A DNA stretch of 35,035 nucleotides from Sphingobacteriia bacterium (GTDB taxonomy: Bacteria > Bacteroidota > Bacteroidia > Bacteroidales > UBA7960), in contig JAABRR010000041.1 of assembly GCA_011390785.1 (NCBI GenBank), positions 1 through 35,035 on the forward strand, written 5' to 3'. A program made the position numbers and the translations under genes. The notes under the pieces are model-generated. The model did no database searches and was not told where the DNA came from. It saw nothing but the letters and a program-made list of their open reading frames with translations. This document shows positions 26,457 through 35,035 of the stretch, one piece after another; the stretch's first letter is position 1; each line of letters begins with the position of its first letter.

Positions 26457-27572
26457 TTAACGTACTTCTTTTATGGTAATACCCAATTCGCGTTCTATGC
26501 TTCTCAGCTCAGAGCGTTCGTCCTGACTGACAATACTTATGGAAAATCCCTTGCGACCGGCACGTGCAGTGCGGCCGCTGCGGTGGGTATAGTATTCAGT
26601 TTTTTCGGGAAGATGATAGTGCACCACATACGCAAGCTCTTCTACATCCAGCCCGCGTGCTGCCAGATCAGTGGCCACCAGAATCTGTAATTTCTTATTT
26701 TTGAAAGCACGCATCACTTTGTCGCGTTCCTTTTGCAACAAGTCGCCATGCAGGGCTTCGGAATTATAGTTGCCGGCAATCAGTTCCTGGGCCAGATTTT
26801 TTGCATCCAGTTTGGTTCTGCAAAAAATGAGTCCGCGGTTTTTACCCTGCGATTTCAGGAAATGAAACAGCATACCAGGTTTTTCTTCCTTTTTGCATAC
26901 AACAAACTTATGTTCAATATCACGGTTGATGACATCAAACTGGTTTACCTGCACTCGCATAGCATCGGGTGCCATGTAATTTTCGATGATCGACTGGATC
27001 TCGCCGGGAATTGTGGCCGAAAACAGCCAGGTATTGCTTTTGTCTTTGGTAATATCAAGAATGGTATCCAGCTCTTTCCTAAAGCCCATACTGAGCATTT
27101 CATCGGCTTCGTCGAGCACTACAATTTTAATGGCAGAAAGATTAATAGCCTTGCGTTCGAGCAAATCGATCAATCGCCCGGGTGTTGCCACCACCACATG
27201 TGTGGGACGGCGCAGGTTTTTGATTTGCTCATCGATCTTTGCTCCGCCATAAACGGCTTCCACAAAAACCTTCTGGTTCCAAAAGCGGGTAAACTTAAAG
27301 AGTTGCCGGGCAATTTGCTGGCATAGCTCGCGGGTGGGCGAAAGAATTAAAGCCTGGGGAATATGTACTTCCGGATTCATGGCATGCAAAATGGGCAAGC
27401 CAAAGGCAGCGGTTTTTCCGGTTCCGGTTTGTGCCTGCCCAATAAAATCTGTACCGGTTTCCATCAGAAAGGGGATGGCCTTGAGTTGGATTTCAGTAGG
27501 CTTTTTAATATTCAGTTCATTTAAAGCATCAATAAAAGACCCGGAAATGCCTAAATCAGAGAACGTTTTCAA
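26457..27572 (-). CDS. DEAD-box RNA helicase (short form)
   Basis: A 371-aa helicase core with almost no C-terminal extension. Q-motif [14 protein letters not shown], Walker [22 protein letters not shown], Walker [21 protein letters not shown] and [10 protein letters not shown] are intact. It differs from the second helicase encoded downstream (24806-26056) in motifs and tail, so it is a paralogue rather than a recent copy. First gene of a helicase-VF530-(helicase) run, with a candidate -7 box 28 bases upstream of the ATG. Confidence 0.93.
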
Positions 27573-27832
27573 AATAATAAGGGTATAAAATTAGGGTGGC
27601 AAAGGTAGTTGAAAGCGATGTGAAAACCTAGGGGAGTTTTTTACCGGGGGTTGAGATGTTTGATGGGTTGATGGGTTGACTGGTGTATTGGAAAGAGATT
27701 ATTTACGCTACAGCTCTGTTGCACCCAAACGCTAAATACTAAGCAGTGAATGTTGAACAATAAAATATTTCACGCAAAGTTCGCTAAGGAAGCCGCAAAG
27801 AACTCAAAGAGATACCCACTTCGGAATAGGCC
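27573..27832. other. Intergenic border between housekeeping and accessory regions
   Basis: This stretch holds the helicase promoter, a short tandem (GATGGGTT twice near 27661-27677) and a low-complexity CGCAAAG-type segment (27773-27812; CGCAAAGTTCGC, then CGCAAAGAACTCAAAG), a sequence style common in Bacteroidota intergenic DNA. I see no gene. The densely coding core ends here. Confidence 0.5.
27600..27607 (-). promoter_or_regulatory. Candidate -7 box (TACCTTTG) for the helicase operon
   Basis: The reverse complement of 27600-27607 is TACCTTTG, fitting TAnnTTTG, 28 bases upstream of the ATG at 27572. No exact TTTG is found at the -33 position. Confidence 0.4.
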
Positions 27833-27878
27833 CTGCCACTAAGATCATTATTTCCAGAACCGGAACCACAAAGAAATG
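27833..27878 (-). pseudogene. 46-bp fragment of a CPBP-like membrane gene
   Basis: On the minus strand this reads HFFVVPVLEIMILVAGP, nearly the same as VPVLEILVFVAGP in the CPBP-like gene at 33154-33658. At DNA level TATTTCCAGAACCGGAAC is shared exactly with that gene. The fragment begins immediately after the stop codon of the intact CPBP gene (27879-28355), so it looks like a recombination scar from a third paralogue. Confidence 0.65.
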
Positions 27879-28355
27879 TTAAACCAATATCCTTTCAAAT
27901 ACCGGATCTAGAGCAAATAATATAAGATTGAATAATGAATGTATGATAAAAAGTCCGGCAAATGCATACAGCGTACCAAATTGGATTTTCAATTTATGAT
28001 AATAAAAAATAAACAGTAAACCTCCAGCAAATGCATACAGCATGAAGAACCAGCTATAGTAATGCGTTAAAGCAAAAAGTCCTGCTGATACAAAAAAAAT
28101 GATTTTCTTATTCATCATTCTAAAAAATTTATCCGCTAATTTATACATCAAAAACTGGAAAAAAAATGTTTCAATTAATGGAGCTACCAAAACTCCCAGT
28201 AAAATCAATGCATAGCGTGGTATTTCGTTGCTTTCAAAACCTTCTAATGAAACTTCTTCAAATTCCATATCAATTAAAAGGAAAACAGCAAAAACCAAAA
28301 ATATAATGGCCAAATAAATAAGTAGTGTTTTAAAATACAGATATCTTTTTGACAT
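27879..28355 (-). CDS. CPBP-family (CAAX protease/bacteriocin-processing) intramembrane protein
   Basis: A 158-aa protein with about five hydrophobic helices. The three short motifs of the CPBP (Abi) family are recognisable. Motif 1 APLIETFFFQF has Glu62, although the usual second Glu is Thr63 and the usual Arg is Gln. Motif 2 LFALTH has His98. Motif 3 IIHSLFN has His139 and Asn143. Family members are glutamic intramembrane proteases; in Gram-positive peptide loci they serve processing or self-immunity. The altered motif 1 leaves catalysis uncertain. It lies on the same strand as the small-peptide genes further right and has a degenerate paralogue at 33154-33658. Confidence 0.72.
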   Translation of the reverse strand: MSKRYLYFKTLLIYLAIIFLVFAVFLLIDMEFEEVSLEGFESNEIPRYALILLGVLVAPLIETFFFQFLMYKLADKFFRMMNKKIIFFVSAGLFALTHYYSWFFMLYAFAGGLLFIFYYHKLKIQFGTLYAFAGLFIIHSLFNLILFALDPVFERILV

Positions 28356-28513: not shown

Positions 28514-28600
28514 CTATTCTCTTTTTAATCCCAACTCTTTCAAAAATTCATTTTGTTTGTCTGTGTTTTCTATTATTCTTTCATAAATTGAATTCAATCT
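28514..28600 (-). pseudogene. hsdM: C-terminal fragment of type I restriction methylase subunit HsdM
   Basis: The minus strand reads RLNSIYERIIENTDKQNEFL and then KELGLKRE before a TAG at 28514-28516. This parallels the tail of the second fragment at 31028-31355 (LNSINERIKDNTDKHNEFL, RELGLPPV). Only about 28 codons remain of a gene normally over 450 codons long, with no start and no hsdS or hsdR nearby. Confidence 0.7.
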
Positions 28601-28611
28601 AAAAGGATTGT

Positions 28612-28626
28612 GGGGCTAACGCCCCT
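28612..28626. repeat. REP-like palindrome GGGGCTAACGCCCCT
   Basis: GGGGC and GCCCC arms around TAAC. The same element appears at 32134-32148, and relatives flank the IS200-type transposase gene (31576-31589, 32081-32094). It sits between the hsdM fragment and the left copy of the long direct repeat. Confidence 0.65.
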
Positions 28627-28906
28627 TTGAATTTGCTTATTGTCATTCTCTAATCCGATTATCACTTATCTTTTCCGGCAAAGAATAGCAATACTGGCAT
28701 GCAGATGCCCTTATTCATTCCGGATAGTATTATATCCATCTTTAAACCCTCTTTTAAAATCAGCAACATGGTCGTCCCAATTCCAGATTACATCTATTAA
28801 AAACATGCTAAAAAGCCCAAGAAGGAAAAAAATTATATCTCTTTTTGATAGTTTTGTTTTCATGCTTTTATGCTATTTGTTAATACTAATTACTTATTCA
28901 ATAGAT
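28626..28906. repeat. Left copy of a ~280-bp direct repeat
   Basis: This segment, from TTTGAATTTGCTT to TATTCAATAGATA, aligns along its whole length with 32227-32509, in the same orientation and with scattered substitutions and very few indels. It contains a complete 50-aa gene on the minus strand. Most differences leave the reading frame open, as expected if the peptide is under selection. Confidence 0.85.
28711..28863 (-). CDS. 50-aa single-pass membrane peptide (paralogue of 32312-32464)
   Basis: ATG at 28863 to TAA at 28711. The peptide begins MKTKLSKRDI, has one hydrophobic helix (IFFLLGLFSMFLIDVI, residues 11-26), then WNWDD and FKRGFKDGYN, ending TIRNE. The paralogue at 32312-32464 has the same length, frame and layout, with conservative changes (for example LLGVFSLFLIEVIWNWDD and FKRGFNDGFN), so both are probably real genes. 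There is no double-glycine leader. The tail pattern NWDD, F..GF.DG.N also occurs in the double-glycine peptide at 34433-34621. I recognise no named family. Function could be a peptide effector, an immunity peptide or a regulator. Confidence 0.65.
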   Translation of the reverse strand: MKTKLSKRDIIFFLLGLFSMFLIDVIWNWDDHVADFKRGFKDGYNTIRNE

Positions 28907-29183
28907 ACGTATCCGTCTAATGCTTTTAAAGGGTCAATTTTGTCTTGTGACTTACTCGCTTTTGATAAACCATGACCCATTAAGTCAATCATTATTACCC
29001 GATATTTTTCAGAAAAGAAATCAATTTGTCGGGCAAAGGCCCGGTGGTCTGAAAATGCAGGGTGTAAAATACAATCAAGTCAGTATTTTCTTTTCCGGAT
29101 ACATAATAATGTATGTCATAACCATCCATTTTCAACGTTTTATGTTCTGTTAAGCTTTCTATATGGTTGGCCTGTAAATTCAT
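28894..29183 (-). pseudogene. Truncated, frameshifted alpha/beta-hydrolase
   Basis: From ATG 29183 the frame reads MNLQANHIESLTEHKTLKMD, then YDIHYYVSGKENTDLIVF. A shift near 29075 brings in LHPAFSDHRAFARQIDFFSE, then VIMIDLMGHGLSKASKS, and the frame ends in GYVSIE at a TAA (28894-28896). IHYYVSG, LHPAFSDHRAF and IDLMGHGLS are standard alpha/beta-hydrolase landmarks (oxyanion loop and the strand after it). The nucleophile elbow and the rest are missing: about 95 codons remain of a normal ~260. The end runs into the left copy of the direct repeat. Confidence 0.75.
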
Positions 29184-29283
29184 TTTTTAAGGTTAAGTCA
29201 GATTCAGGCAAGGGTGGCAAAGTATACAGACTGTTTCAGGGTAGTAGTTTATTTTTCTTAATTAGATACGCTGTCAGCATTTA

Positions 29284-30699
29284 TTATTGTTCTAACAAAT
29301 ATAAATATTTTCCTATTCCATTTGTAACAGCCCATGAGTCATGCTCGTAATTATACCCGGTTGTAACGATTACTACATTTAAATCAGGCACAATATAAAT
29401 AAACTGACTACCCAATCCATTTGCCCATATTGTTTCATACTTTTTATTATTTGATTCAATATTTATTTTCCACCAGTGATAAGCATAATCATCACCCTCA
29501 ATATTTGTGGTGGTTTTTATTGAAGTGGATTGGTTAATCCAGTCAGTAGATATAATCTGCTTGTTATTATATTTTCCATTGTTTTGGACTAACAAACCTA
29601 CTTTCAACATGTCAATGGGCAGAAACTGTAAAGAACCTCCCATACATGGAAAACTATCTTGCTTAAAAATACTCCAATCATATTTATTTATATCAAGAGG
29701 TTCGAAAAGGAACTTATCAGCAAAAATATCTGCATACATTCCTGTTTTTCGTTTTATTATTGCACCCAAAATCTCTGTATTTCCTCCATCATATATAAAT
29801 TTCCCGCCAACAGGGGCAATTAACTCTCTTTTTAATGAATATTCTATTCTGTTATAATCTTTATAAGGCTCATATTCATTAGAAAATCCAGATGTCATTG
29901 TCAGGATATGATTTAAAGTGATTTTTTTATAATCACCTGTTCTTAAATGATTGTATTCCGGAAATATTTTATATAAAGGTTCATTCAAATCAGAAATCAT
30001 TCCTTTGTCTTTTGCGATACCTGCAAGTAAGGAAGTAATGCTTTTAGTTGCCGATTCAATTTGATGTAAATCATTTCTGGCATATCCATAAAAATATTCT
30101 TCACATATAAGACTATCGTTCCTGGCCAAAAGAAAAGAATTAATTCTTCCATATTGGTTAGAAATTATCTCAGGAATTAATGAATAAATAAATAAAGAAT
30201 CATTTGGTGTTTGAAAGTGTGTCGCGGGTATGTATTCATCAAAAGAAACAGGTTTTTTATATTGATACCTGTAATGGGCATTATTGCATTCCGGTTTTGC
30301 CTCGGTCAGAAAATGTTTTACATCATTATTTTTAACCAAATTAACTGTATCAAATGGTTCGTTTAAGCAAGTAAAACCACCATTAATCAGATTGTTATCA
30401 TATATTTTCCCTGAATAAATGCAGTTCCAACCAGGAATAAAAAAACGTATGCTGTCTGAATTCAGGAATATACTATCAACTTTAAACTCCGAATTATAGA
30501 ATTTGTGATTTGTCCAGAAGCCTTTTGCCTCGATTGAGTCATTTTTTTCAATTATTTGAATGTAGAATTTTTTATTCACATCTTCTGGATGAGGACCTTC
30601 CCAAAAACCAGGAAAACCAGATCCATCCTCATTTATCATACTACAACTTTGTAATATAACCAGAACAACCAAAAATATGAGAGAGAAAGTATGTTTCAT
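29284..30699 (-). CDS. Serine hydrolase lipoprotein (beta-lactamase/class C-like family)
   Basis: A 471-aa protein. The start at 30699 gives a lipoprotein signal (MKHTFSLIFLVVLVILQSC, Cys19); the upstream extension to 30762 overlaps a methyltransferase fragment and is not used. Residues ~150-470 are a serine beta-lactamase/DD-peptidase-like domain. It has SATK (Ser216, Lys219) as the nucleophile motif, YDGGN (303-307) in the place of the YxN motif, and WANGLGSQFIYIVPDLNVVI near the C-terminus as the usual beta-strand motif. Residues ~20-130 form an extra N-terminal beta domain of unknown type. Such proteins are often esterases or peptidases rather than antibiotic-resistance enzymes. It is the only full-size intact gene within the decayed region. 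Confidence 0.88.
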   Translation of the reverse strand: MKHTFSLIFLVVLVILQSCSMINEDGSGFPGFWEGPHPEDVNKKFYIQIIEKNDSIEAKGFWTNHKFYNSEFKVDSIFLNSDSIRFFIPGWNCIYSGKIYDNNLINGGFTCLNEPFDTVNLVKNNDVKHFLTEAKPECNNAHYRYQYKKPVSFDEYIPATHFQTPNDSLFIYSLIPEIISNQYGRINSFLLARNDSLICEEYFYGYARNDLHQIESATKSITSLLAGIAKDKGMISDLNEPLYKIFPEYNHLRTGDYKKITLNHILTMTSGFSNEYEPYKDYNRIEYSLKRELIAPVGGKFIYDGGNTEILGAIIKRKTGMYADIFADKFLFEPLDINKYDWSIFKQDSFPCMGGSLQFLPIDMLKVGLLVQNNGKYNNKQIISTDWINQSTSIKTTTNIEGDDYAYHWWKINIESNNKKYETIWANGLGSQFIYIVPDLNVVIVTTGYNYEHDSWAVTNGIGKYLYLLEQ

Positions 30700-30703
30700 G
30701 CTC

Positions 30704-30847
30704 TTAATAATAAATGCCGGTGTTTCTATACTTATTCTCGGCGAAGCCTGCCAGCATATCATACCATTTGCTCATCTTATTGTAACTGACTTTGGCTTCA
30801 TCTTTTGATCTTGCTACTCTGCTTATTTCTGTATTATTACCAGACAT
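30704..30847 (-). pseudogene. N-terminal fragment of a SAM-dependent methyltransferase
   Basis: ATG at 30847 to TAA at 30704, 47 codons. It reads EISRVARSKDEAKVSYNKMS and then KWYDMLAGFAENKYRN, the N-terminal layout of UbiE-like class I methyltransferases (Y.(R/K)(L/M)S.WYD.L.G..E.KYR). The SAM-binding motif that should follow is missing, because the sequence stops and the serine hydrolase gene begins 5 bases later. Probably truncated by insertion of the hydrolase gene; a small surviving peptide cannot be ruled out. Confidence 0.6.
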
Positions 30848-31027
30848 GTTTTATCTAATCTGTTATATTTTAGCGGCATTAGGCCTGACTCGCTTGCATT
30901 AACAAGTATGACATCTTCCCCCTTGCTACGCCATAGTCTGTTATACCGGGTGGAATAAAGTGGTGTGAAGCTTCTTGTAATCTTTTCATTTTTCAAGGCG
31001 TATTTTCAAAACCCACCTGGCGTTGGC

Positions 31028-31355
31028 TTAAACAGGCGGCAAACCCAACTCTCTCAGAAACTCATTGTGTTTATCTGTGTTATCTTTTATTCTTTCATTT
31101 ATTGAATTCAATCTGCCATTTACTTCTTTCATATCAATTTGTACTTCATCTTCCGATGTGCTCACATATCTGGAAATGTTCAGGTTGTAACCGTTCTTTT
31201 CAATTTCTTCCATAGATACTTTCCTTGAAAAACGTTCGGTTTCCTGCCTGTATTTATGTCTCTACAATGTTTTTCATATGGTTTTTGCCCAGGGTGTTCT
31301 GGCGTTTTCCATTTTCATACTGCTCGGTGGCATTGATAAATAAGACATTGTCTTC
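31028..31355 (-). pseudogene. hsdM: Frameshifted 3' fragment of hsdM (type I restriction-modification methylase)
   Basis: Two frames join at about 31257. The first (31355-31257) reads EDNVLFINATEQYENGKRQN, then TLGKNHMKNIVET. The second (31258-31028) reads HKYRQETERFSRKVSMEEIE, then KNGYNLNISRYVS and ends HNEFLRELGLPPV. INAT, NGYNLNISRYV and ENTDKHNEFL-type tails are characteristic of HsdM C-termini. About 110 codons remain. No intact hsdS or hsdR gene is present in the window. A shorter second fragment lies at 28514-28600. Confidence 0.8.
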
Positions 31356-31575
31356 TTAATTCGCTTTCTCACATTAAGCAACAATGAACCCGAAACACAG
31401 GCAAAATAAAGCACTTTTTTCAGTTTGCTTTTCCTCCCTGTACATCGGTCCTGGCTGGCCTGCAATACAAAATCGCAAAGGACAATTGAAATTTGTTGTG
31501 CTTTATAAAATTCATCAATAACAGGTGCGTAGCCCAATAATCTTCGTAGCATTAATATTCATTTAGTGATAAATA

Positions 31576-32094
31576 AGGGGCGTAGCCCTACCATCTATAT
31601 ATTTTCATACCATTCAAAAAGATATTTCGGGTCGTAATCCACATCATTTTTTTTTAAAAAGGACAAATATTCATCCTTAAAAGATTGTTTTTTGTGATGT
31701 TCGGGTTGGTTTAGCACATATTTCACAACCTGGTCTATGTGCGATTTTGAATAGGTGAAAGCCCCGCAGCCATCCTGCCATGTGAACTTACCGGGAACAA
31801 GTTTTTTGTTATTCAGCCAGTTGGATGAACCTGATTTTACTTGTTCCATTAATTTTGACGGGGATATTGCGGGGTGCATCCCTACAAAAATGTGGCAATG
31901 ATCGGGGTTGCAGCACATGGCATAGGTTTTACATTTGTAATTGGAAATTATGCCAACCATGACTTTTTCCAGTTCATCCCTGAATTTTTCTTTAATGAAG
32001 TTTCCCCTGCCTTGCACGGTGAATACATATTGGATGTATAATTGGGTGTATGTATTTGCCATTTATTGTTTGTTTATATTAGGTCTACGCCCCT
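31576..32094 (-). mobile_element. IS200-like element or REPtron bounded by 14-bp inverted repeats
   Basis: The transposase gene (31595-32062) is bounded by AGGGGCGTAGCCCT (31576-31589) and AGGTCTACGCCCCT (32081-32094). The reverse complement of the left matches the right at 13 of 14 bases. Each arm is itself nearly palindromic, as expected for hairpins recognised by Y1 transposases. Related palindromes lie outside the element at 28612-28626, 32134-32148 and 32162-32174, which favours a REP/REP-associated-transposase arrangement over a simple insertion sequence. Confidence 0.65.
31595..32062 (-). CDS. IS200-like Y1 (HUH) transposase
   Basis: A 155-aa transposase of full length. NPDHCHIFVGMHP carries the HUH metal-binding pair (His-Cys-His). 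The catalytic tyrosine is probably in GAFTYSKSHIDQVVKYVLNQ, followed by PEHHKKQSFKDEYLSFL, a typical C-terminus of this family in Bacteroidota (VDYDPKYLFEW ending). The enzyme cuts and joins single-stranded DNA at hairpins. Flanking GGGGCGTAG-type palindromes probably are its recognition sites. It appears intact and may still be active. No TnpB is present. Confidence 0.92.
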   Translation of the reverse strand: MANTYTQLYIQYVFTVQGRGNFIKEKFRDELEKVMVGIISNYKCKTYAMCCNPDHCHIFVGMHPAISPSKLMEQVKSGSSNWLNNKKLVPGKFTWQDGCGAFTYSKSHIDQVVKYVLNQPEHHKKQSFKDEYLSFLKKNDVDYDPKYLFEWYENI

Positions 32095-32133
32095 ATGGTT
32101 TTTAATCGGTGTTTCAATTCTACGAAGATTTTC

Positions 32134-32174
32134 AGGGCTAACGCCCCTTTAAAGATTTTGGAGCCTACGCCCCT
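32134..32174. repeat. Two further REP-like GGGC/GCCCC elements
   Basis: AGGGCTAACGCCCCT (32134-32148) and AGCCTACGCCCCT (32162-32174) repeat the core of the transposase-flanking palindromes. With 28612-28626 and the two flanks there are five copies in 3.6 kb, all in the accessory region and none seen in the core. Confidence 0.65.
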
Positions 32175-32226
32175 ATGTATTATTATCAGTTTTTCTTAAT
32201 CTACTATGAGGCAGGGCTTATGCATC

Positions 32227-32509
32227 TTTGAATTTGCTTTTCATCATCCTCTAATCCGATTATCCCTTATCTTTTCCGGCAAAGAATAACAATTCTGGCA
32301 TGCAGATACTCTTATTCATTCCGCGTAGTATTAAATCCATCGTTAAACCCTCTTTTAAAAGCAGCAGCGTGGTCGTCCCAATTCCAAATCACTTCTATTA
32401 AGAACAAGCTAAAAACCCCGAGCAGAAAAGAAAGGATATCTCTCTTTGATATTTTTATTTTCATGTTTTTATGCTATTAGTTAATATTTAATTATTTATT
32501 CAATTGATA
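32227..32509. repeat. Right copy of the ~280-bp direct repeat
   Basis: The segment aligns with 28626-28906 (same orientation) and contains the second 50-aa peptide gene. Upstream of that gene (minus strand) both copies end in a short open stretch closing with SIE and TAA. In the left copy this is the alpha/beta-hydrolase remnant; in the right one a stretch ending FGYGLSIE, possibly a more eroded relative. Confidence 0.85.
32312..32464 (-). CDS. 50-aa single-pass membrane peptide (paralogue of 28711-28863)
   Basis: ATG at 32464 to TAA at 32312. It begins MKIKISKRDI, continues with a hydrophobic helix (LSFLLGVFSLFLIEVI), then WNWDD and FKRGFNDGFN, ending TTRNE. Same length and layout as the left-hand paralogue; substitutions are mostly conservative (D to E, Y to F, I to L). 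Located 174 bases downstream of the small two-helix gene at 32639-32890 and upstream of the transposase. Function unknown; see the shared tail pattern with the double-glycine peptide at 34433-34621. Confidence 0.65.
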   Translation of the reverse strand: MKIKISKRDILSFLLGVFSLFLIEVIWNWDDHAAAFKRGFNDGFNTTRNE

Positions 32510-33153: not shown

Positions 33154-33658
33154 CTATAACATCTCCCCCAATACAACAACAAATTTAAATATAACATTTG
33201 TCAGCAGAACCAGCCAGAAAGCCTTACTATCCTTTTCAATACGAGATACATAAACAAAGAACCATATAAAACATGATAGAAAAATATGTAATAGAATTAA
33301 AAAATTACTTTCAAACATGACATGAATGAGGGCAAAAACCAGGGAGGAAAAAAGCATTACATACAAAAGGTTGTTTCGCAAGAGTGATGAATTCATAGCC
33401 ATTTTATAAGGTCCTGCCACAAAGACCAATATTTCCAGAACCGGAACTGCAAAACAATACACAATCATAGCCCATAACACCTTGCCGCCATAAAGATTAT
33501 CGAGGAGTTGATGGTTCAGAACAGCCTGGTACAATACGGTACCAACTGCTTCTGACGTTATGATTGCAGCGAACAAAACAATCAGTACAAATCGGGTTAC
33601 GACTCATCCGGGAAAGAGAATCAGCGAAATCGGATAGTACTTTGTTGTTGAGATTCAT
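33154..33658 (-). pseudogene. Frameshifted CPBP-like membrane protein
   Basis: The open frame from 33576 down has only a TTG start. The preceding 82 bases, in another frame from ATG 33658, read MNLNNKVLSDFADSLSRMSR. Joining the frames near 33594-33596 (a GGG run) gives a continuous N-terminus SRMSR(NP)RFVLIVLFAAII, a natural first helix. The body has VPVLEILVFVAGP (motif 1, one Glu) and LVFALIH (motif 2, His), aligning with the intact CPBP gene at 27879-28355. Motif 3 (H...N) is replaced by LLTNVIFKF. It is therefore probably a decayed or non-catalytic CPBP paralogue. A sequencing error at the G-run is the alternative explanation. Confidence 0.6.
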
Positions 33659-33961: not shown

Positions 33962-34084
33962 TCACATAAACATATTATAAAGCATGATAACCAAAGACAT
34001 AACGGCATAGAAAGCCAGAATGCGGTTTACAAGCTTCAACTTTTTGTTTTCCTGAATGAGTTTTTCAATTTGATTTTGTTCCAT
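33962..34084 (-). CDS. 40-aa single-pass membrane peptide with coiled-coil N-terminus
   Basis: ATG at 34084 to TGA at 33962. The first 19 residues (MEQNQIEKLIQENKKLKLV) have the heptad-like charge pattern of a short coiled coil. Residues 22-40 are hydrophobic (ILAFYAVMSLVIMLYNMFM) and run to the C-terminus, so it is probably tail-anchored. It lies 136 bases downstream of the second double-glycine peptide gene, after a strong hairpin. No family recognised. An accessory or immunity role is possible; a regulatory microprotein is equally so. Confidence 0.5.
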   Translation of the reverse strand: MEQNQIEKLIQENKKLKLVNRILAFYAVMSLVIMLYNMFM

Positions 34085-34220: not shown

Positions 34221-34397
34221 TTATCGAGATGCTCTTGTATGCCATTGTGAACCATCAAAAATTGTTGCTGCTTCCCAAATCCAGTTGGATATTTGGCCCA
34301 ATGAAAACCCCAAATCATAGGTAAAAGCATCCCCGCCTGAAATATTTACACATTCAGTGATATCCAAATTAACTAGTTTATTATTTTTTGATTGCAT
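34221..34397 (-). CDS. 58-aa double-glycine-leader peptide precursor
   Basis: ATG at 34397 to TAA at 34221, with AAAGGATG just upstream as a possible ribosome-binding site. The leader LVNLDITECVNISGG (8-22) has the hydrophobic spacing and Gly-Gly end of peptides cleaved by C39-type peptidase ABC exporters. The core is 36 aa: DAFTYDLGFSLGQISNWIWE, then AATIFDGSQ and a basic end. It has no Cys in the core and an alternating Gly/hydrophobic amphipathic helix. It starts 35 bases after the first double-glycine peptide, so both are cotranscribed and may act as a two-peptide pair. Other frames here are open but lack such features. Confidence 0.65.
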   Translation of the reverse strand: MQSKNNKLVNLDITECVNISGGDAFTYDLGFSLGQISNWIWEAATIFDGSQWHTRASR

Positions 34398-34432: not shown

Positions 34433-34621
34433 TCAAGGTCTATTATACTCACCGTTCCAACCATCTGAGAAACCTTGAGTAAAATCATCCCAATTATTAT
34501 ACATGTAAATCGCTGCTCCCATAATTGAAACGAATCCCAAAAATCCACCACCATCAATCTTTGCTGCATCGCATCGGCTCAATTGCTTAACATTAAGGCC
34601 ATCTAAATTTAACTTTTCCAT
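34433..34621 (-). CDS. 62-aa double-glycine-leader peptide precursor
   Basis: Starts MEKLNLDGLNVKQLSRCDAA, then KIDGGG. This is a standard Bacteroidota double-glycine leader (M(E/K)xLNLxxL, acidic residue, Gly24-Gly25). The core of ~37 aa has a hydrophobic helix (FLGFVSIMGAAIYMY) and then NNWDDFTQGFSDGWN, ending NGEYNRP. Secretion would need a peptidase-containing ABC exporter, which is not in the window. The gene lies 53 bases downstream of an HTH regulator gene on the same strand. The NWDD, F..GF.DG.N tail recurs in the two 50-aa leaderless peptides (28711-28863, 32312-32464), linking them to one system. Bacteriocin-like, signalling or other secreted-peptide roles are all possible. Confidence 0.8.
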   Translation of the reverse strand: MEKLNLDGLNVKQLSRCDAAKIDGGGFLGFVSIMGAAIYMYNNWDDFTQGFSDGWNGEYNRP

Positions 34622-34674: not shown

Positions 34675-35019
34675 CTAGCAGCCTGTAAGCTTACGGTATA
34701 TAAAGTTAGCATCGCAGCGTCCGGAAAACAAGTACGCTAACGAAAAAAAACCACCCTGAATCATTTTTTCTTCCCTGATCTTCAATGGCCGAACAGAAAA
34801 GGAAACTGATACATCATAGGGTTGCTCATAATAAAAGGTGTTTCCTGACTTATCATAGGCTATTGGCACGTCCTGCGACTTTAGCTCATCAATAATTTCA
34901 TACAAGCGTGTCCGGCTTATGCCCAATAGACTGGCAAATTCTCCCGGGGAACCTGTAGCCCGGCGTTGTATCAAACGGTTCATCCGGTTTAATCGATCAA
35001 CATAGCATAAAAACTTCAT
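34675..35019 (-). CDS. Small HTH-domain regulator upstream of the peptide genes
   Basis: A 114-aa protein starting MKFLCYVDRLNRMNRLIQRR. Residues ~22-65 form a DeoR/HTH_11-like helix-turn-helix: GSPGEFASLLGISRTRLYEI, then IDELKSQDVPIAYDKSGN and TFYYE, which is the wing. The C-terminal ~45 residues are unrecognised. Similar ~100-aa HTH proteins are, from memory, common next to short Bacteroidota peptide genes. It precedes the two double-glycine peptide genes on the same strand (53-base gap) and is likely cotranscribed with and controls them. The start is 16 bases from the window edge, so promoter and upstream context are missing. Confidence 0.8.
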   Translation of the reverse strand: MKFLCYVDRLNRMNRLIQRRATGSPGEFASLLGISRTRLYEIIDELKSQDVPIAYDKSGNTFYYEQPYDVSVSFSVRPLKIREEKMIQGGFFSLAYLFSGRCDANFIYRKLTGC

Positions 35020-35035
35020 AGCACTTATGTTTAGA

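Follow-up and report, generated by a model that had tools for sequence, protein, structure and literature searches.

The immunity protein of lactococcin G reportedly recognises regions of both peptides of this two-peptide bacteriocin, as the title of a cited reference has it. The immunity mechanism of two-peptide bacteriocins in general was called a mystery in 2019 (PMC6957408, accessible sections). Among the described systems, each cited for the accessible sections of its article, CdzI confers immunity to CdzC/CdzD, a two-protein bacteriocin of Caulobacter, and has three predicted transmembrane (TM) segments and no obvious sequence homologues (PMC5380434); the bacteroidetocins are class IIa-related peptides of Bacteroidetes whose leader is cleaved after a double glycine (GG) and for which the authors did not find an immunity protein (PMC6671954); enterocin DD14 is a leaderless two-peptide bacteriocin with a multi-TM immunity protein, DdD (PMC13262744). 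No description of leaderless, toxin-like immunity in GG two-peptide systems was found in the open-access literature (most subscription papers and bioRxiv preprints were outside its scope). Here, a DNA stretch of 35,035 nucleotides from a Sphingobacteriia bacterium (Bacteroidales, UBA7960; contig JAABRR010000041.1 of assembly GCA_011390785.1; hereafter the window) was analysed for two open reading frames (ORFs) of 50 amino acids (aa), to which a first inspection of the letters (the sequence-only reading) had drawn attention, and for the GG peptide pair encoded on the same contig:

28711-28863, minus strand: leaderless 50-aa protein with one TM helix, copy 1, beta-like tail (beta profile 20.9 bits, tail-shuffle p 0.002)
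32312-32464, minus strand: leaderless 50-aa protein with one TM helix, copy 2, beta-like tail (beta profile 16.2 bits, tail-shuffle p 0.002)
28613-28907: duplicated block with copy 1, 86% DNA identity to 32214-32509
32214-32509: duplicated block with copy 2, 86% DNA identity to 28613-28907
34433-34621, minus strand: double-glycine peptide of the beta type, 62 aa
34221-34397, minus strand: double-glycine peptide of the alpha type (partner), 58 aa, directly after the beta gene and absent from the sequence-only reading

The two 50-aa ORFs had been taken for paralogues with a basic N-terminus and one helix. Both are indeed present, are 76% identical at the protein level and, according to sequence, charge and hydropathy, possess a short cationic N-terminus and a single TM helix, a GG leader being absent. 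The duplicated block of approximately 295 bp takes in the flanks of the ORF at either side. The 50-aa protein is under constraint, since the nonsynonymous divergence of the pair (dN) is 0.111 against a synonymous divergence (dS) of 0.431 (dN/dS approximately 0.26). Copy 32312 was modelled as two helices, residues 7-27 and residues 29-49, that are interrupted at residue 28; the alignment behind this model had 2 rows, and the mean pLDDT was 83.5. With respect to the GG pair, the copies are located approximately 1.8 kb and 5.4 kb downstream; other ORFs intervene, plus a transposase in the case of the far copy. Pfam, NCBIfam and PHROGs yielded merely weak matches for the 50-aa and the GG peptides of the window, and no relatives of the window peptides were obtained from the single-sequence search of genome contigs or from plasmids. 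The anchor-like, cationic N-terminus argues against 50-aa proteins that would be exported as leaderless bacteriocins of the enterocin DD14 kind.

As judged from sequence, the 50-aa ORFs are members of a leaderless protein family with a single TM segment, and in this family the C-terminal tail is related to that of the beta peptides from GG-leader two-peptide bacteriocins. In the window, the tail NWDD/F..GF.DG.N is common to both 50-aa ORFs and the 62-aa GG peptide, and copy 32312 matched the latter by BLASTP with an E-value of 4e-5 (single comparison; 22 columns, 4-residue gap). The hhalign comparison of 9 leaderless relatives with 12 GG beta peptides, with window sequences in neither set, resulted in P 1.4e-7 and a probability of 94 over 28 columns. 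One of the 12 beta peptides (L043; L numbers denote sequence stretches, G numbers genomes) had itself been retrieved via the leaderless profile; without it and with mature peptides only, the score was 36.0 (P 3.1e-8); 200 column shuffles reached 17.5 at most, and the reversed alignment scored 9.9, some selection remaining in the beta set because most of the other eleven peptides came from a profile that contained L043. The similarity sits mainly in the tail: shuffling the tail columns alone, with the TM segment kept, collapsed the score to 17.6 at most, while shuffling the pre-tail columns alone left a mean of 28.7. The leaderless proteins compared with the alpha peptides gave an hhalign P of 0.71. 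Detection succeeded in both directions, as the leaderless profile retrieved a GG peptide in another genome (G607) and at E<=0.1 the GG profile in turn picked up leaderless ORFs in four of the 11 carrier genomes (G373, 4.0e-5; window genome, 0.0034 and 0.067; G228, 0.0072; G486, 0.06). A chance resemblance of the tails is rejected by the window-free profile comparison and the shuffles; together with the two-way detection, these support the shared tail pattern and the common ancestry that the sequence-only reading had proposed.

Because the beta-type GG peptide has a GG partner at 34221-34397, the exported component looks, in its sequence features, like a two-peptide, lactococcin-G-like pair. 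The GG pattern is present in both ORFs, and leader and gene order are common to the relatives. Weak NCBIfam matches name the two peptides lactococcin G beta and alpha, with 13.3 and 13.7 bits for NF038034 and NF038035, far under the curated cut-off of 37; the structure model of the GG precursor (single chain) was poor (mean pLDDT 60.9) and was not used as evidence. In many related loci the beta peptide is directly followed by the alpha peptide, and many also contain CPBP, HlyD-type and C39 ABC-type genes, with large ORFs of the C39-transporter type in several of them. TIGR03949 was matched at E<=1 by 10 of 12 beta-type relatives (best 6.3e-6; the leader was covered in the one match shown), and NF038035 by 5 of 10 alpha-type members, the window peptide among the 10 (E<=1, best 4.3e-5). 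The GG profile had matches in 24 of 395 phylum genomes at E<=0.01, many through the leader only, and, at E<=0.001, in 15 of the 199 genomes from the G607 family. Three of the five non-window matches of the GG single-sequence search were read, of which L024 and L027 are GG peptides and L025 is not; L026 and L028 lie in long frames and were not read. The Pfam cut-off of PF02517 was passed by all CPBPs tested from GG loci (8/8).

Tiny leaderless one-TM ORFs were present in the related GG operons, on the same strand and at the position where immunity genes are expected. A 47-aa leaderless ORF after the GG pair of G837 has DW.HFKDGLLG and a cysteine in common with its own beta peptide (16/32 identical). 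In the G824 operon, the ORF has 48 aa, is located between the beta and the alpha gene and ends in ISGGI like the beta peptide of the same operon (12/24 identical). Further operon mimics were located in G941 (two), G627 (one), G486 (one) and G651 (one, weak), that of G486 matching the G627 beta peptide with E 6e-8 in a 23-peptide database. For a systematic test, same-strand leaderless TM ORFs of 28-75 aa from 25 GG loci were scored with a profile built from 19 mature beta peptides of our choice, which include the window peptide: ORFs of the operon zone scored higher than those elsewhere in the loci (45 versus 63, all rows, p 6.9e-6). For filtering, one broken GG gene was taken out of the first (operon-zone) set; the second set was cleared of window copy 28711 and of six GG-containing ORFs and was the only one to which the GG filter was applied. 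The remaining 44 and 56 ORFs differed with p 3.4e-7 and with 5/44 versus 0/56 at 5.5 bits or above, and exclusion of the window ORFs (41 versus 50) gave p 2.8e-6. Tail-only shuffles, which are independent of this null, resulted in p<=0.006 for eight of nine mimics and 0.036 for the ninth, and whole-sequence shuffles, scored with the best of 19 betas, in p<=0.007 for 9 of 14 candidates picked by eye. The orphan leaderless family, compared with the seven operon mimics outside the window, reached a score of 31.9 (maximum of 25.4 in 200 mimic-tail shuffles).

Cognate matching was apparent in G837 and G824, where the own beta peptide ranked first of 19; the window copies had their own beta at about rank 3 and 4. 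The mimics carry a net N-terminal charge of +2 to +7 and a tail charge of -1 to +1. Five of the nine are located within 500 bp of a CPBP ORF (both G941 mimics beside one 61-aa fragment), two have a CPBP at 2.3 and 4.0 kb distance, and the stretch contains none for the last two, one of these stretches being a 3.7-kb contig. A very recent copying of the tail by gene conversion was rejected for G837 and G824, as many third positions differ (identity of 0.56 and 0.50, respectively, over the aligned stretches); a partial exchange may have occurred over the 12-codon core of G837 (third-position identity 0.75). Another G837 candidate (L147:2002-2130, 24.8 bits) was dropped as a broken GG gene, given the GG leader in a different frame just upstream.

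In the explanation that we tentatively favour, at slightly below an even chance, the leaderless mimics would be inner-membrane decoys that give immunity, and the window pair would be a partly detached copy. The short cationic N-terminus in place of a GG leader is predicted to anchor the protein in the inner membrane with N-in/C-out orientation, and the anchored protein would expose the beta-type helix end and the tail at the outer side of the inner membrane of its own cell. In this position, the mimic would pair with the incoming alpha peptide or fill the beta site on a membrane receptor; no productive alpha-beta complex would be formed, and immunity would result from the decoy. In producers, such mimics are part of the bacteriocin operon, and several are neighbours of a CPBP/Abi-type gene; the window pair would be a version that has been duplicated and partly detached, in an AT-rich island where the GG pair and genes of the CPBP type are also located; for non-producers, orphan resistance would be the role of the family. 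With more reserve, we put forward as a possibility a general principle of two-peptide immunity, in which a leaderless anchored copy of the membrane-active half of one peptide would trap the partner or block a shared receptor, the cognate tail would be matched by selection, and detached copies would spread as orphan resistance, as in the window.

The distribution of the leaderless family was surveyed at the family, order and phylum level. In the family of the window genome, 47 genomes were covered (12 belonging to its genus, itself included), and no credible copy was present besides that of the window genome. The order sample (393 genomes) contained 45 matching genomes at E<=0.05, of which the window genome and G373, G109, G300, G228 and G070 were accepted; the five relatives all had E<=1.6e-8, the next match 8.9e-4. 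The hit strand was read at seven non-window matches (the five accepted, L013 and L016), the rest being dismissed by E-value. In the phylum sample (395 genomes), 8 matched at E<=0.001: the window genome, five leaderless carriers (G486, G575, G784, G770, G501), the GG peptide of G607 and a false match in G796, which was dropped as the start of a 239-aa proline-rich protein. Another match, in G031, was dropped for its location in a 354-aa frame. Leaderless carriers thus numbered 6/393 and 6/395, the window genome counted in both, and G991, retrieved with the GG profile, is the twelfth carrier. The family consensus starts with a short N-terminus, conserved across families, that contains (I/L)(S/T)KRD or one of its variants; one TM helix and DW....(R)GF..G follow, at a total length of 43-62 aa and without GG leader. 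A 53-aa ORF in G142 (L013) is a possible distant member and was left out of the count. G486 contains an orphan copy and, on a different contig, the GG operon with mimic. Downstream of this orphan ORF, three similar-looking proteins of approximately 140 aa are encoded in a row (L046:10013-11287), and a similar run adjoins a broken copy in G784 (L047).

Several results weigh against the decoy explanation. Around the orphan copies, 10 stretches were tabulated in 9 genomes (G770 and G501 limited to 3 kb); their neighbours differ, no GG peptide was seen by eye, and a CPBP match was present in 0/10. A GG-leader peptide at E<=0.01 was not found in 7 of the 11 carrier genomes searched with the GG profile (present in the window genome, G228, G486 and G575), and a C39 peptidase was undetected at E<=1e-5 in 5 of 12 carriers (window genome, G373, G109, G784, G991). 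The branch that contains the window pair is mostly orphan and may stand for orphan resistance or for something unrelated. The null of the systematic test is weakened because its second set probably contains spurious frames, and 5 of the 14 candidates picked by eye were not significant by whole-sequence shuffle (L145_8877, 0.15; L036_6656, 0.55; L103_8913, 0.88; L110_8879, 0.08; L035_4720, 0.09), L145_8877 nonetheless being counted as a mimic with 0.006 in the tail-only shuffle. The ranks of the own beta over the nine mimics were 1, 1, 6, 12.5, 4.5, 3, 4.5, 16.5 and 15.5; since the rank sum p is 0.059, cognate specificity is a suggestion based on the two operons with a clear match. Several GG operons contain a CPBP and no beta mimic. 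Alpha-like leaderless mimics (e.g. in G486, G639, G739) are not claimed, with p 0.096 raw and 0.040 or 0.054 filtered. Leaderless TM ORFs whose tails recall the alpha peptide (e.g. TYSLGYVVGYFFK) were observed in GG operons at L098:10127-10977, L103:8462-8572, L108:13443-13571, L117:8782-8880 and L145:9688-9795; they are unconvincing as a group and merit a larger test.

The sporadic orphan occurrence with differing neighbours, the CPBP-free orphan stretches and the carriers without C39 match would also be expected if the KRD-type 50-aa proteins were an ordinary accessory family of small membrane proteins with a function of their own, their tail likeness being due to ancestry or to juxtamembrane convergence. 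Immunity in the window would in that case be provided by the CPBP gene that is present there or by a 40-aa ORF that is related to an equivalently placed ORF in another GG locus. We consider such an accessory role rather unlikely: operon mimics exist, two of which nearly copy the tail of their cognate beta; the orphan family aligns with these mimics beyond the level of the shuffled tails, and its sporadic presence counts against a housekeeping role. On the whole, the sequence-only reading is supported in part: its shared tail ancestry is supported, and for self-protection by leaderless mimics the evidence is circumstantial, with operon ORFs in immunity position, two of them bearing a near-copy of the cognate tail, on the one side and carriers without a detected GG peptide or C39 match on the other. 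That reading had also named a common occurrence of the 50-aa peptides without double-glycine relatives as an argument against itself; this was found in part, in the 7 of 11 carriers mentioned above and in the tabulated orphan stretches, none of which showed a GG peptide nearby.

A reverse direction of mimicry, in which the beta peptide imitates a resident small membrane protein, the natural partner of a conserved membrane target, and borrows its tail for docking on that target, is improbable. The tail is common to the leaderless and the GG group, and leaderless members are spread over distant families and also occur in genomes where no GG exporter was detected, as would be the case for a resident protein; a conserved neighbourhood, however, was not seen, the family is not broad at the frequencies given above, and the own beta is the best match in two operons. 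We rate as more improbable still that the leaderless proteins assist the producer otherwise, as membrane chaperone or export adaptor of beta or as sensor of alpha: in some operons they are co-directional and located between the GG genes and the HlyD/C39 genes, yet five of the twelve carrier genomes are devoid of a detected C39 exporter, and the proteins are too short for a catalytic or DNA-binding domain. That they are decayed, functionless duplicates of beta genes without leader is very improbable, for although some copies look broken (the second G784 copy is interrupted, the G501 homologue lacks an ATG) and the island contains a transposase and repeated remnants, the dN/dS of the window pair and of G575/G770 (0.19) and the conserved N-terminus speak against it.

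The window has the following further features:

33962-34084, minus strand: leaderless 40-aa ORF with a TM segment, next after the alpha gene; a candidate for immunity, related to an ORF of G197
33154-33576, minus strand: CPBP-like membrane protein (15.9 bits, below the Pfam PF02517 cut-off of 22.4)
27879-28355, minus strand: CPBP/Rce1-like protein, candidate immunity gene (PF02517 32 bits, above the cut-off of 22.4), 356 bp from copy 28711
34675-35019, minus strand: small protein with weak helix-turn-helix (HTH) match, possible regulator upstream of the GG pair (matches below cut-offs)
31595-32062: IS200-type transposase

The ORF at 33962-34084 has a relative of 41 aa at L035:4720-4845, the equivalent position in G197; the E-value, from a small database, is 1.5e-5. 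For the CPBP-like protein at 33154-33576, a weak BLASTP match to a GG-operon CPBP was obtained (E 7.9e-5 in a small database), and it was not retrieved by the CPBP profile used for the distance survey. The protein at 27879-28355 matched CPBPs of G486 (E 1e-18), G607 (1e-12 and 4e-10), G788 (3e-12) and G716 (5e-10), in a comparison that covered seven proteins from GG loci. In the order sample, the leaderless carriers and the verified beta-type GG carriers (window, G197, G125) overlap in the window genome only. In this genome, a draft of 158 contigs, PF03412 (C39 peptidase) had no match at E<=1e-5; with two GG peptides and no detected C39 domain, the exporter may be lost or may lie in an assembly gap, the latter because the contig runs for only 414 bp past the beta gene and stops shortly after the HTH-like gene located upstream of the pair.

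From position 27501 to its end at 35035, the window has a GC content of 0.32-0.36 (0.37-0.46 before), and on account of this low GC and the IS200-type transposase the region looks like an acquired, rearranged island. Repeats of the type GGGGC...CGCCCC were spotted by eye near both 50-aa copies; together with the transposase, they possibly form a REP/RAYT (repetitive extragenic palindrome/REP-associated tyrosine transposase) arrangement. A 45-bp repeat (87% identical) occurs at 27828-27872, just beyond the CPBP gene, and at 33409-33453 within the CPBP-like gene, perhaps as a relic of duplication. A 61-aa ORF at 31028-31213 (minus strand) has a second, partial copy at 28527-28600, perhaps reflecting gene decay in the island; we take it to resemble the C-terminus of a type I restriction methylase, for which the Pfam search gave no match.

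Through a mimic of one peptide of the pair, the question of two-peptide immunity becomes directly testable. If the decoy works, it would identify the trapped partner and the decisive helix face and would predict which strains resist which pair; if the explanation is true, it would provide a sequence signature by which two-peptide systems, and also orphan resistance genes, could be found in Gram-negatives, where ORFs of 33-50 codons are readily overlooked by annotation.

In comparison with known systems, the class IIb bacteriocins of the lactococcin G/enterocin 1071 type (NF038034, NF038035) and of the lactobin A/cerein 7B type (TIGR03949) share with the window the GG leaders and the two adjacent peptides, and the loci related to the window contain C39/HlyD and CPBP genes; the window peptides differ from these types in scoring below the curated cut-offs, and the window and related pairs in the leaderless beta-like ORFs near them. 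By Pfam score, the protein at 27879-28355 and the CPBPs of the GG loci belong to the CPBP/Abi immunity proteins (PF02517), from which the mimics differ as single-TM proteins of 33-50 aa that resemble the toxin peptide instead of a CPBP. CdzI is likewise a small inner-membrane protein, and its gene accompanies those of a two-component Gram-negative bacteriocin with type I secretion, but it has three predicted TM segments, and toxin mimicry is not reported in the accessible sections of its description (PMC5380434). The bacteroidetocins are similar as Bacteroidetes peptides with a double-glycine leader, but are class IIa-related, and the accessible sections describe no two-peptide system (PMC6671954). 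Enterocin DD14, as far as its accessible description extends, resembles the present case in its leaderless small peptides and in the link between bacteriocin and self-immunity; there, the leaderless peptide is the bacteriocin itself, whereas in the window the GG leader belongs to the exported form, and its leaderless counterpart looks anchored in the membrane (PMC13262744).

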